Below are positions 60,219-64,000 of a DNA stretch of 64,000 nt, in pieces. The notes beneath the pieces were generated by a model that saw nothing but the letters and a program-made list of their open reading frames with translations, ran no database searches and was not told where the DNA came from. This stretch comes from Franzmannia pantelleriensis. Lineage in GTDB: Bacteria; Pseudomonadota; Gammaproteobacteria; Pseudomonadales; Halomonadaceae. Each line of letters opens with the position of its first letter. Position 1 is the first letter of the stretch. The stretch is taken from assembly GCF_900102875.1 (NCBI RefSeq), contig NZ_FNGH01000013.1:62001-126000 (forward strand), in the 5' to 3' direction. The position numbers were made by a program, and so were the translations under genes.

Positions 60219-60699
60219 GTACGCGCAAGCCATCGCCAGCGTGCTCTGCGGCCAGTTCGGCAACCCGGCGGCCGTCTGGCAGGCACTGTGCAGGGGCGAT
60301 ATCGGCCAAGGGTAGCAGTACGAAGCCTCGGCTGGCCATGTGCGGATGCGGCAGTGTGAGCCGCGGCGTGGCCAGGCAGATATCGTCGTAGAGCAGTAGA
60401 TCGAGATCGAGGGTGCGCGGCCCCCAGTGGCGCAGGCGGCGGCGGCGCTGGCGCTGTTCCAGTGCCTGCAGCAGGTCGAGCAGCGCCAACGGTGAGAGGC
60501 GGGTGTCGAGGGCGGCCACGGCGTTGACGAAGTCAGGTTGATCCTGAGGCCCTACTGGGCGACTGGTGTAGCAGGGCGAGGCTGCCACGCGCTGGGTCAG
60601 CGGCAGGCGATCAAGGGCGGCGAGGGCGCGCTGCACCTGGGCCAGCGGATCATCGAGATTGCTGCCCAGGCCGATATAGGCGCGGTGTGTGTCAGCCAT
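60202..60699 (-). CDS. folK: 2-amino-4-hydroxy-6-hydroxymethyldihydropteridine diphosphokinase
   Basis: A 165-residue HPPK that pyrophosphorylates the pterin for FolP. 'AYIGLGSNLDDPLAQVQRALAALDRLP' and 'GPQDQPDFVNAVAALDTRL' are present, and 'RHWGPRTLDLDLLLYDDICLATPRLTLPHP' holds the catalytic loop and magnesium Asp pair. The ATG at 60699 is supported by CAGGG upstream; the frame continues into pcnB. It overlaps the pcnB end by eight bases, coupled as in E. coli and Pseudomonas. Confidence 0.96.
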   Translation of the reverse strand: MADTHRAYIGLGSNLDDPLAQVQRALAALDRLPLTQRVAASPCYTSRPVGPQDQPDFVNAVAALDTRLSPLALLDLLQALEQRQRRRRLRHWGPRTLDLDLLLYDDICLATPRLTLPHPHMASRGFVLLPLADIAPAQCLPDGRRVAELAAEHAGDGLRVLLPQR

Positions 60700-62098
60700 C
60701 TTGCCCTGAGGGCGACGAGGCGCGCCGCCGACGCTTGCGCGGCCGGCGCTTGCGTGGCCCAGGCGTGCCAGCGGGGTCGGCATCTACCTTGCCCAGCAGG
60801 CGCCGTTGCTCGTGTTCGTCGGCTTCCTGGAAGGCGGTCCACCAGGCGCCGAGGCCGGGATCGAGCTCGCCAGCTTCCTCGCGCAGCAGCAGGAAGTCAT
60901 AGGCTGCGCGAAAGCGCGGATGCTCACGGGTCTGGAAGGCGCGCTTGCCACGGCGCTTGGGCAGTCGCTGCTGCAGGTCCCAGATGTCGCGCATCGGCAG
61001 ACTAAAGCGCTTGGGGATCGAGATATGCTGCAGCTGGCGCGATACTGCCTGCTGCGATGCGGCCTGCAGCGCGGGAATCGGCGGCATGCCGTCGTCGGCG
61101 AGGCGCGCCATGCGCTGGGTGACGCCGGGCCATAGCAGTGCCGCAAACAGGAATGCCGGCGTGACGGGGCGGCCCTCCTGAATACGCGCGTCGGTGTTGG
61201 CCAGGGCGCGCTCGATCAGCGGCTCGGCCCAGGGTAGTTCGGCGATGCTCTCGTCGGCCTCGGGGAACAGCATGGCAAACAGGCCGTACTCGCGCAGCAG
61301 GCGGAAGGTGGCCAGCGCCTGCCCGGCCAGCATCAGCTTGAGTACCTCGTCGAACAGCCGCGCCGGCGGAATCTGCAGCAGTAGCGGGGCCAGTTCGCGG
61401 ATCGGTGCCTCAGTGGCCTCGGCGATGGCGAAGTCGAGTTTGGCAGCGAAGCGGATGGCGCGCAGCATGCGCACCGGGTCTTCGCGATAGCGGGTTTCGG
61501 GGTCGCCGATCAAGCGCAGCGTGCGCGACTCGATATCGCGGATCCCGTCGGCCCAGTCGTGGATCGAGAAGTCGGCGATATTGTAGTAGAGGGCGTTGAC
61601 CGTGAAGTCACGACGCAGGGCGTCCTCTTCGACGTTGCCCCAGACGTTATCGCGCAGCAGAAGACCGTCCTCGGACTGCTGCGACTGCTGGGTGCCGTGA
61701 TCGTCGCCGGGGCGACCGCGGAAGGTGGTGACCTCGATTACCTCGCGGCCGAAGCGCACATGCACGATGCGAAAGCGCCGCCCGATGATGCGCGAATTAC
61801 GAAACAGGTCGCGCAGCTGCTCGGGGGTGGCGTCGGTGGCGACGTCGAAGTCCTTGGGCGTCTGGCCGAGCAGTGAATCGCGGATGCAGCCGCCCACCAA
61901 GTAGGCCTCGAAGCCGGCATTATGCAGGCGATACAACACCTTGAGCGCCGGTTCGCTGAACTGGCGGCGGGAGACCGGGTGTTGGTCGCGCGGAATGATC
62001 TGGAGCCCATGGCTGACAGCGGGGCCGTCCTGGCTTCCGAAAAGACTCTTCAAACGTTCACCGGGGCGTTGGAGAAAGCGGGTAAATCCTTTGAACAT
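60692..62098 (-). CDS. pcnB: Poly(A) polymerase I
   Basis: A 468-residue PcnB that adds 3' poly(A) tails and so marks RNA for decay, including small RNAs. The nucleotidyltransferase site 'YLVGGCIRDSLLGQTPKDFDVATDATPEQLRDLF' with the DxD pair and 'RRDFTVNALYYNI' is intact, and the C-terminal tail is very basic ('KRRPRKRRRRASS'). The start is taken at ATG 62098 (MFKGFTRF); the frame runs 38 codons further upstream but those codons fall near the end of the crcZ-like RNA. It would follow crcZ as in Pseudomonas. Confidence 0.95.
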   Translation of the reverse strand: MFKGFTRFLQRPGERLKSLFGSQDGPAVSHGLQIIPRDQHPVSRRQFSEPALKVLYRLHNAGFEAYLVGGCIRDSLLGQTPKDFDVATDATPEQLRDLFRNSRIIGRRFRIVHVRFGREVIEVTTFRGRPGDDHGTQQSQQSEDGLLLRDNVWGNVEEDALRRDFTVNALYYNIADFSIHDWADGIRDIESRTLRLIGDPETRYREDPVRMLRAIRFAAKLDFAIAEATEAPIRELAPLLLQIPPARLFDEVLKLMLAGQALATFRLLREYGLFAMLFPEADESIAELPWAEPLIERALANTDARIQEGRPVTPAFLFAALLWPGVTQRMARLADDGMPPIPALQAASQQAVSRQLQHISIPKRFSLPMRDIWDLQQRLPKRRGKRAFQTREHPRFRAAYDFLLLREEAGELDPGLGAWWTAFQEADEHEQRRLLGKVDADPAGTPGPRKRRPRKRRRRASSPSGQDG

Positions 62099-62212: not shown

Positions 62213-62727
62213 ACGCAGAAGGGGGAGACCCTAAGGTCTCCCCCGAAGCATGCGTTCAGCGGTCCGTGCTGATAATTTTTCTTCGTGATGGCGCATCGCC
62301 TTGAATACGCACCACAGTCACCCAAGGGATCATCAGGCAAGCAACGCTTCTTATTGTTGTTGACCTCTTCCTGGTGGCGACCGTCTCGTATTCAAAACAA
62401 TAATCCAACCACGACGGTAGCAAGCTACCTTCCTTCGGCCTGTTGTTATTGTTGCCGAAGGTGCACCTCTGAGCCGCTTGTTCTTTTTGTTGCGGCTGCG
62501 CGATGCGTCGCGTCCTGGTTCATTTTCCGGACTCTCGACCCTATTGTGCTTGTTATGGTCGAGTCGCGGCAGCGGTGTGTTGTTGTTGTTGGGCTCGTGG
62601 AGCCTACCGATTGCTCGCGTGTCATAGCCCGACGCAGGATTGTTGTTGTTGAGCGTCGGGTCGCGCTGTCGCCACCTTGTTGTTGTTACGTGGCAGGGAA
62701 CAGCGTCCGGATGTTGTTTTTCTTGCC
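62213..62727 (-). ncRNA. crcZ: CrcZ-type small RNA, Hfq/Crc decoy with seven CA motifs
   Basis: About 515 nt on the minus strand between cbrB and pcnB, exactly where Pseudomonas has crcZ. The plus-strand reading shows seven TTnTTnTT tracts, which are AAnAAnAA catabolite-activity motifs in the RNA, at 62714-62724, 62677-62687, 62640-62650, 62580-62590, 62478-62491, 62443-62453 and 62348-62361, plus a degenerate one in 62541-62556. Several sit in loops of perfect hairpins, for example stem 62628-62635/62653-62660 and stem 62432-62439/62454-62461. A sigma-54 promoter lies just upstream and a terminal hairpin at the end. The 5' end is inferred from the promoter. It would bind Hfq/Crc and lift catabolite repression. 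Confidence 0.85.
62221..62244 (-). terminator. Terminator of the CrcZ-type RNA
   Basis: GGGGGAGACC and GGTCTCCCCC form a perfect 10-bp stem with a four-base loop; on the minus strand CTTCTGCGTTT follows. Some read-through into pcnB is likely, as reported for Pseudomonas. Confidence 0.75.
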
Positions 62728-62736
62728 CTAAGGTAT

Positions 62737-62752
62737 AGCAGTGACCGTGCCA
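62737..62752 (-). promoter_or_regulatory. Sigma-54 promoter of crcZ
   Basis: On the minus strand TGGCACGGTCACTGCT matches the -24/-12 consensus TGGCACG-N4-TTGCW at all but one conserved base, with the required ten bases between GG and GC. Transcription would start near 62727. CbrB, the adjacent gene, is a sigma-54 activator. Confidence 0.85.
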
Positions 62753-62826: not shown

Positions 62827-62877
62827 TGTTACCTCCAGGGGACCATGCTGGGGCAATTCCTGTGTGGGATGGTAACA
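62827..62877. promoter_or_regulatory. Candidate CbrB enhancer upstream of crcZ
   Basis: TGTTACC at 62827-62833 and GGTAACA at 62871-62877 form a perfect 7-bp inverted repeat spaced by 37 bases. They lie about 75 and 120 bases upstream of the sigma-54 -24 element, a normal distance for an enhancer-binding protein. GTTAC/GTAAC arms agree with what I recall of CbrB targets in Pseudomonas. Confidence 0.5.
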
Positions 62878-62968
62878 ACTGGTGCATGCGAGGCCGGGTC
62901 GTCCACAAAAACGCCCTCGCTCACGGAGGGCGAAGGCGCTTAGACCATGGTCGGATTGTGCTGGGCGG

Positions 62969-64000
<1,032 letters not shown>

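Follow-up and report, generated by a model that had tools for sequence, protein, structure and literature searches.

A noncoding stretch of about 515 bases between cbrB and pcnB of Franzmannia pantelleriensis very probably encodes a CrcZ-type RNA, that is, a trans-acting decoy that would be activated by CbrB and would titrate Hfq/Crc. Under carbon limitation, CbrA and CbrB would activate RNA polymerase with sigma-54 from TGTTAC/GTAACA sites, and an RNA of about 510 nt would be made whose hairpins display A-rich (AAN)n loops. These loops would bind the distal face of Hfq, together with Crc, and draw Hfq/Crc away from transcripts for the catabolism and transport of second-choice substrates; the RNA probably relieves the repression of second-choice food genes. 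Transcription of the RNA, its dependence on CbrB and RpoN, Hfq/Crc binding and de-repression are what we infer from the sequence. Comparison across the family Halomonadaceae indicates that the RNA outlives its activators, and its promoter may have passed to another regulator in several lineages.

The cbrB–pcnB locus and its promoter

The window, i.e. the whole 64,000-nucleotide stretch of DNA analysed here, ends inside cbrB. Read along the minus strand, the gene order is gluQ, cbrA, cbrB, an 870-base noncoding stretch and pcnB (Table 1). We take as marks of a CrcZ-type locus a noncoding region between cbrB and pcnB on the same strand, a sigma-54 promoter box, TGTTAC/GTAACA subsites upstream of it and AANAANAA repeated on the RNA strand much more often than expected by chance, and each of them is found here. 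An earlier sequence-only reading had placed the RNA at 62213–62727, between cbrB and pcnB, and this placement is correct.

Table 1. Features of the cbrB–pcnB region (positions in the window unless marked L007; offsets are relative to the sigma-54 box)
Feature	Position	Strand	Remarks
cbrB, 3' part	62969..64000	-	runs beyond window end; PF00158 and PF00072
cbrB, full	L007:6969-8357		462 aa
cbrA, after cbrB	L007:8335-11301		
Terminator-like hairpin with T run, 3' of cbrB	62912..62932	-	
GCACCA element	62880..62885	-	
CbrB subsite F, TGTTAC	62872..62877	-	putative; -125; site definition from the available part of PMC6296734
Weak NtrC-like dyad GCCCC-AGCAT-GGTCC	62840..62854	-	between both CbrB subsites; score 6.7
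CbrB subsite R, GTAACA	62827..62832	-	putative; -80; centre 45 bp from F
Sigma-54 promoter box TGGCACGGTCACTGCT	62737..62752	-	predicted
CrcZ-type RNA	62213..62726	-	predicted start 62726 (12 nt after box GC); end near terminal hairpin
Eight AANAANAA loops	62276..62724	-	predicted loops
AANAANAA loops 1-4	62724-62717, 62687-62680, 62650-62643, 62590-62583	-	
AANAANAA loops 5-8	62491-62484, 62453-62446, 62361-62354, 62283-62276	-	
Family-specific 3' domain	62280..62420	-	long hairpin, strongly conserved sequence around one CA loop
Terminal GC hairpin GGGGGAGACC-UUAG-GGUCUCCCCC and short T tract	62221..62244	-	
pcnB (poly(A) polymerase), downstream neighbour	60692..62098	-	NCBIfam pcnB 547 bits, cut-off 305.65

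The sigma-54 promoter that the same reading had placed upstream of the motifs is recovered as the box TGGCACGGTCACTGCT, which has one mismatch to the sigma-54 promoter consensus TGGCACG-N4-TTGCW and whose position sets the predicted start of the RNA. The gene rpoN itself we presume from the sigma-54 activators found in the genomes. Both CbrB subsites are present in all 55 CbrB-type promoters of the family, with a spacing of 45 bp in 46 of them and of 35–55 bp in all. The GCACCA element occurs in 39/55 CbrB-type and 30/31 CbrB-less promoters, mostly at an offset to the sigma-54 box of about -132 to -146. A clear middle R1 subsite was not found in the window's promoter; the P. putida set, in the available part of its description, is F1-R1-R2 (PMC6296734).

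Motifs, coding potential and predicted fold

The minus strand of 62213–62727 carries 17 overlapping matches to AANAANAA, eight of them non-overlapping, and the plus strand one, while dinucleotide shuffles of the same bases (n=1000) gave a mean of 0.56 overlapping matches and a maximum of 5. Most minus-strand matches of the whole window (17/26) fall inside the RNA stretch. The sequence-only reading had counted seven AAnAAnAA motifs: the excess on the minus strand holds, and the count becomes eight. Tandem Repeats Finder found no array.

An antisense frame runs open for about 150 codons in 5/5 same-genus sequences (145–151 codons) and for 101–113 codons in four other genera. A protein-coding reading was nevertheless rejected because the four same-genus relatives each carry 2–5 indels in the RNA stretch whose length is not divisible by three, and because substitutions in this frame show no third-position excess in the same-genus comparison. 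The earlier statement that these bases hold no credible gene is therefore upheld.

The 515-nt RNA has a predicted folding energy of -204.4 kcal/mol (z -7.35). In an alignment of 22 sequences (the window's RNA and 21 relatives, picked from 30 loci), the consensus fold comprises 85 pairs, 26 of them with compensatory changes; several hairpins of the 5' half are missing from it because that half aligns poorly. When 84 pairs were tested (one isolated pair being dropped), 97.5% of the cells were paired, 25 pairs had changes on both sides, none of 500 shuffles reached the observed value and slid versions paired at 38–53%, figures to be read with the caveat that the structure came from the very alignment tested and that the sequences are related. 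Alignment-free predictions place the motifs in loops: in 17 chosen CbrB-type RNAs the mean probability of being unpaired is 0.89 for AANAANAA bases versus 0.35 for other bases, in 12 chosen CbrB-less RNAs it is 0.90 versus 0.38, and for other A bases it is 0.58.

The RNA had been described as ended by a strong hairpin. The hairpin is indeed strong, with a 10-bp GC stem, but as an intrinsic terminator it is weak, since the T run behind it (TTCTGCGT) is poor; it was not among the terminators listed by a scan of the window.

The 3' domain and alternative readings

The 3' domain, of about 140 nt, contains two conserved blocks, UUGGAUUAUUGUUUUGAAUACGAG and GUGGUGCGUAUUCAAGGCGAUGCGCCAUCACGAAGAA, and its predicted fold has a z of -4.5. 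Counts were made in 31 CbrB-less loci and in a CbrB set of 57 loci, the latter made up of the 55 CbrB-type loci, L084 (a second stretch, in G057) and L102 (a second stretch, in the CbrB-less G018). With at most one mismatch, the first block is found in 45/57 and 12/31 loci, respectively; with at most six, it is found in all loci except L102, L053 and L060. At the latter tolerance, the second block is found in 46/57 and 23/31 loci and has diverged in the remainder. In 60 loci from elsewhere in the order the first block has at least 9 mismatches of 24, i.e. the domain was not found there. Within a GU-rich stem, the domain hairpin also includes UUAUUGUUUU, which is complementary to a CA-type motif.

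Since sequence, and not pairing alone, is conserved in near relatives, the 3' domain probably has its own job. The stretch might encode an Hfq-binding, base-pairing small RNA acting mainly via this domain, with the CA loops as a tether for Hfq. The first block does keep its primary sequence across much of the family, CbrB-less genomes included, a conservation that decoy function alone would not need. However, the outer stem of the domain (helix 8) has 24 of 25 pairs invariant among the 22 aligned sequences, so that this sequence should be paired and not free, and the second block is diverged in part of the family; we regard this possibility as unlikely.

Less likely still is that the stretch belongs to pcnB as a long 5' leader or a cis-regulatory region, whose loops would control that gene without any free RNA. 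It lies directly 5' of pcnB and points the same way, and read-through into pcnB is plausible because the T run is poor and pcnB follows directly. Against this, eight loops seem excessive for the control of a single gene, the promoter has CbrB sites and the terminal hairpin (helix 12) is conserved, three of its pairs having changed on both sides among the 22 sequences. The idea of a non-functional A-rich intergenic relic can hardly be sustained against the covariation, the motif excess and an RNA signature (sigma-54 box with at least 9 of 12 positions, and at least five motifs within 560 bases) that stands before pcnB in 86 of the 87 genomes of the family whose pcnB regions were examined. We thus retain the CrcZ-type decoy.

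Relay genes and candidate targets

CbrA, CbrB, Hfq and Crc are all encoded in the genome, in line with the CbrAB-CrcZ-Hfq/Crc relay that had been supposed to exist here. CbrA has the architecture SLC5-STAC-kinase: it carries HisKA and HATPase domains, and its residues 3–597 match the Pseudomonas CbrA SLC5-STAC structure PDB 10ED (E 6e-184), deposited as CbrXA SLC5-STAC according to the available part of a preprint (PMC13022988). No Pfam SLC5 model matched CbrA at E 0.001. CbrB combines a receiver domain (PF00072) with a sigma-54 activator domain (PF00158), and Hfq is encoded by one gene (142.8 bits with NCBIfam, above cut-offs).

Crc is one of four PF03372 proteins of the genome. It matches the catabolite repression control protein of PDB 4jg3 (E 5e-75) and, slightly better, 2myi, which is labelled exodeoxyribonuclease III (6.5e-77); NCBIfam likewise labels it xth (exodeoxyribonuclease III) above cut-off, and no Crc model was among its NCBIfam matches. 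The ExoIII of the same genome (L008) has QETK, GDFN and SDHAP, which we take to hold the catalytic residues, where Crc has QNLK, GTWH and SEFAP. The protein thus has the ExoIII fold with the catalytic residues lost, as is proper to Crc and not to ExoIII.

The pattern AACAACAACAA occurs six times in the genome, three times in the RNA and three times outside. Two of the outside sites lie just 5' of the Shine-Dalgarno region of genes for transporter substrate-binding proteins, one polyamine-type and one TRAP-type (names assigned by eye), and the third lies near acs, on the wrong strand or ambiguous. The two transporter genes are at C18:208810 and C21:209529 of G000. Among the 15 other AANAANAA sites of the window, two lie within 45 nt of a start codon that opens a frame of 100 codons, and neither of these is convincing.

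Comparison with known decoy RNAs

We file the RNA as CrcZ-type at the corresponding locus, and not as a member of Rfam family RF01675 as curated. At the gathering threshold (95 bits) Rfam returned no CrcZ. The sequence-only reading had proposed an Infernal search with this model, and CrcZ did come out as the best of three sub-threshold matches to the stretch, at 21.7 bits (E 0.0016), far under the threshold, with a partial match of 17.3 bits.

The cbrB-RNA-pcnB position, the sigma-54 box, the TGTTAC/GTAACA subsites, the multiple A-rich stretches and the terminal hairpin are shared with Pseudomonas CrcZ. The available part of PMC4063720 describes P. aeruginosa CrcZ as an RNA of 407 nt with six A-rich stretches, which binds Hfq at its distal face and titrates the protein away from catabolic mRNAs. 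In comparison, the RNA predicted here is longer (about 515 nt) and has eight motifs rather than six A-rich stretches. It also differs from Pseudomonas CrcZ in having the extra 3' domain, of which the 60 order-level loci showed no trace, and one clear F and one clear R subsite, 45 bp apart.

Pseudomonas and Azotobacter genomes carry additional CrcZ-type copies elsewhere. CrcY and CrcX of Pseudomonas, and CrcZ and CrcY of Azotobacter, are CbrB-activated decoys of Hfq/Crc in the portion available of PMC8871633; the RNA described here is predicted to be of the same decoy type. A search of the present genome with the pattern AACAACAACAA gave, outside the RNA, the three sites described above.

RsmY, RsmZ and CsrB also titrate a protein by repeated hairpin loops under the control of a two-component system, as is predicted here. 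Their motifs are GGA and are bound by CsrA/RsmA, in contrast to the AAN motifs and Hfq of the present case. Our literature survey covered open-access papers, subscription journals being outside its scope, and among the papers listed we found no report of such a locus beyond Pseudomonas and Azotobacter and nothing pairing CrcZ with Marinobacter. In the available text of PMC9049629 Halomonas appears in the references only, and that of PMC13101641 (Halomonas, small RNA/Hfq) contains no CbrA, CbrB or NtrC.

Distribution across the order

CbrAB is said to be exclusive or unique to Pseudomonadaceae in the available parts of two papers (PMC8871633; PMC6296734). Judged by homology, CbrAB is not confined to that family and is widespread in the GTDB order: in a sample of 105 genomes, PcnB was found in 104 and the tail of CbrB in 97, which cover 72 of 78 genera. 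The Rfam CrcZ threshold was passed in 6/105 genomes, none of them among the four Halomonadaceae, and E 0.001 was reached in 20, in a search whose stricter filters lose weak matches.

The region before pcnB was taken from 60 of these genomes, spanning 39 families other than Halomonadaceae. The 45 genomes left out include the four Halomonadaceae, three with a cbrB–pcnB gap below about 150 bases and some with cbrB far off or on another contig; among the 60, G138 and G144 are without CbrB, and G121 and G127 have it on another contig. Requiring at least four AANAANAA on the RNA strand and a shuffle p of at most 0.01, we found a motif-rich region before pcnB in 44/60 loci (28/39 families), and for this reason the locus looks ancestral in the order. 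At least four AANAANAA on the opposite strand were found in 0/60. The 16 loci that fail the test include both CbrB-less ones.

Five loci of other families (L125, L126, L128, L145 and L165) seem to have two motif clusters before pcnB, several of them with a second GTAACA set, as if the RNA had been duplicated in place.

Loss of CbrA and CbrB within Halomonadaceae

In 121 genomes of the family, PcnB and Crc (62–100% identity) are universal, CbrB (tail) is found in 89 and CbrA (E <= 1e-100) in 67. Every genome with CbrA also has CbrB, 22 have CbrB only and 32 have neither. This distribution indicates that the relay decays from the top within the family, CbrA and CbrB being lost repeatedly and Crc kept. 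Among named Halomonadaceae loci, of which the best 80 of 221 were taken, all 80 carried the RNA signature and 78 both CbrB subsites. The single exception among the 87 genomes examined, G024 (g24; L083, L062), has CbrAB and Crc and may have moved or lost the RNA: no sigma-54 box with a motif cluster was found at pcnB, and no cluster within 3 kb after cbrB, where there are just three scattered motifs.

The CbrB-only group includes all 10 sampled Chromohalobacter (g2) genomes. Eleven named loci have cbrB without a good adjacent cbrA match, and weak cbrA matches beside cbrB at L261, L266 and L271 may be remnants. All 11 orphan loci keep both CbrB subsites, 45 bp apart. The residues E8, D9, D51, T75 and K97, which we take to be the canonical receiver residues of CbrB, are intact in all 68 CbrB proteins with an adjacent cbrA (the window's own and 67 named), as opposed to the orphan proteins, where at least one is changed in 12/12 readable sequences (the 11 named and L084); these are not 12 independent events, as seven are from Chromohalobacter. 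Three more g7 sequences were left out, the stretch fetched being without the receiver. One orphan has the conservative change of E8 to D alone, and in two D51 has become E. According to the available part of PMC6296734, CbrB barely depends on phosphorylation, a property that would permit its decoupling from CbrA.

The two orphans with E at the phospho-acceptor position D51 are those of L266 (Halomonas salinarum) and L271 (Onishia niordana), a possible permanently-on mimic.

CbrB-less genomes and possible control by NtrC

The 32 CbrB-less genomes comprise 31 in seven genera (g4, g8, g10, g15, g16, g17 and g18) and Halomonas cupida (G104, L298). All 31 loci fetched, and L298 as well, carry the RNA signature between gluQ and pcnB. 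Two of them, in G017 (g17) and G018 (g18), barely pass, with divergent RNAs of five motifs and no recognizable 3' domain. In no CbrB-less locus do the 200 bases preceding the box contain both CbrB subsites; L047 and L095 have TGTTAC alone. No CbrA orthologue was detected at E 1e-100 in any of the 32 genomes. A looser search of 16 of them found only proteins of 1317–1359 aa matching the transporter part of CbrA, which could be other transporter-linked sensors.

Which activator could serve these promoters? We surveyed PF00158 activators in eight CbrB-less genomes, setting aside matches with E > 1e-10, which were assumed to be general AAA ATPases. With NCBIfam models above cut-off, G106 has GlrR and NtrC, and G018 has NtrC and NorR. 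NtrC is the sole activator common to both and was recognized by eye in 8/8 surveyed genomes. GCAC-N7-GTGC dyads lie before glnA or ntrB in 9/9 genomes, the window's included, and a matrix was built from 16 of the 18 listed dyads (two were dropped by eye), its own sites scoring 14.9–22.7.

The best NtrC score averages 10.5 in CbrB-less RNA promoters, with 16/31 scoring at least 9 (shuffles 2.1%), versus 2.8 in CbrB-type promoters (n=55), with 6/55 at this level (shuffles 1.6%); the Mann-Whitney p of 1.4e-8 ignores kinship. The signal comes from the 18 promoters outside g4 (mean 13.3), the mean best score of g4 being 6.6, and H. cupida (7.2) and L304 (4.7) are both weak. On these scores, many but not all CbrB-less promoters have NtrC-like sites in place of CbrB sites. 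The resemblance between the two promoter classes may partly predate the loss of CbrB, since a weak dyad (6.7) also lies in the window's promoter and GCACCA is common to both. A handover of the RNA promoter to NtrC in part of the lineages is a supported prediction.

Between gluQ and the RNA, L298 and L304 share a block of about 70 bases that is near-identical by eye; these CbrAB-less loci are otherwise diverged.

We lean, with some reserve, towards a scenario in which several lineages of Halomonadaceae lost CbrA and then CbrB and kept the RNA and Crc, the promoter passing to NtrC so that the RNA would now report nitrogen limitation. Chromohalobacter and others would represent an intermediate state, with an orphan CbrB devoid of normal receiver phosphorylation. 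With kinase and activator lost step by step and the RNA kept, the family would offer a natural experiment on a regulatory RNA that survives a change of master, and one in which a carbon role of the decoy can be tested against a nitrogen role. Given the wide spread of the locus, Hfq/Crc carbon repression would also become testable in Halomonas, an industrial chassis.
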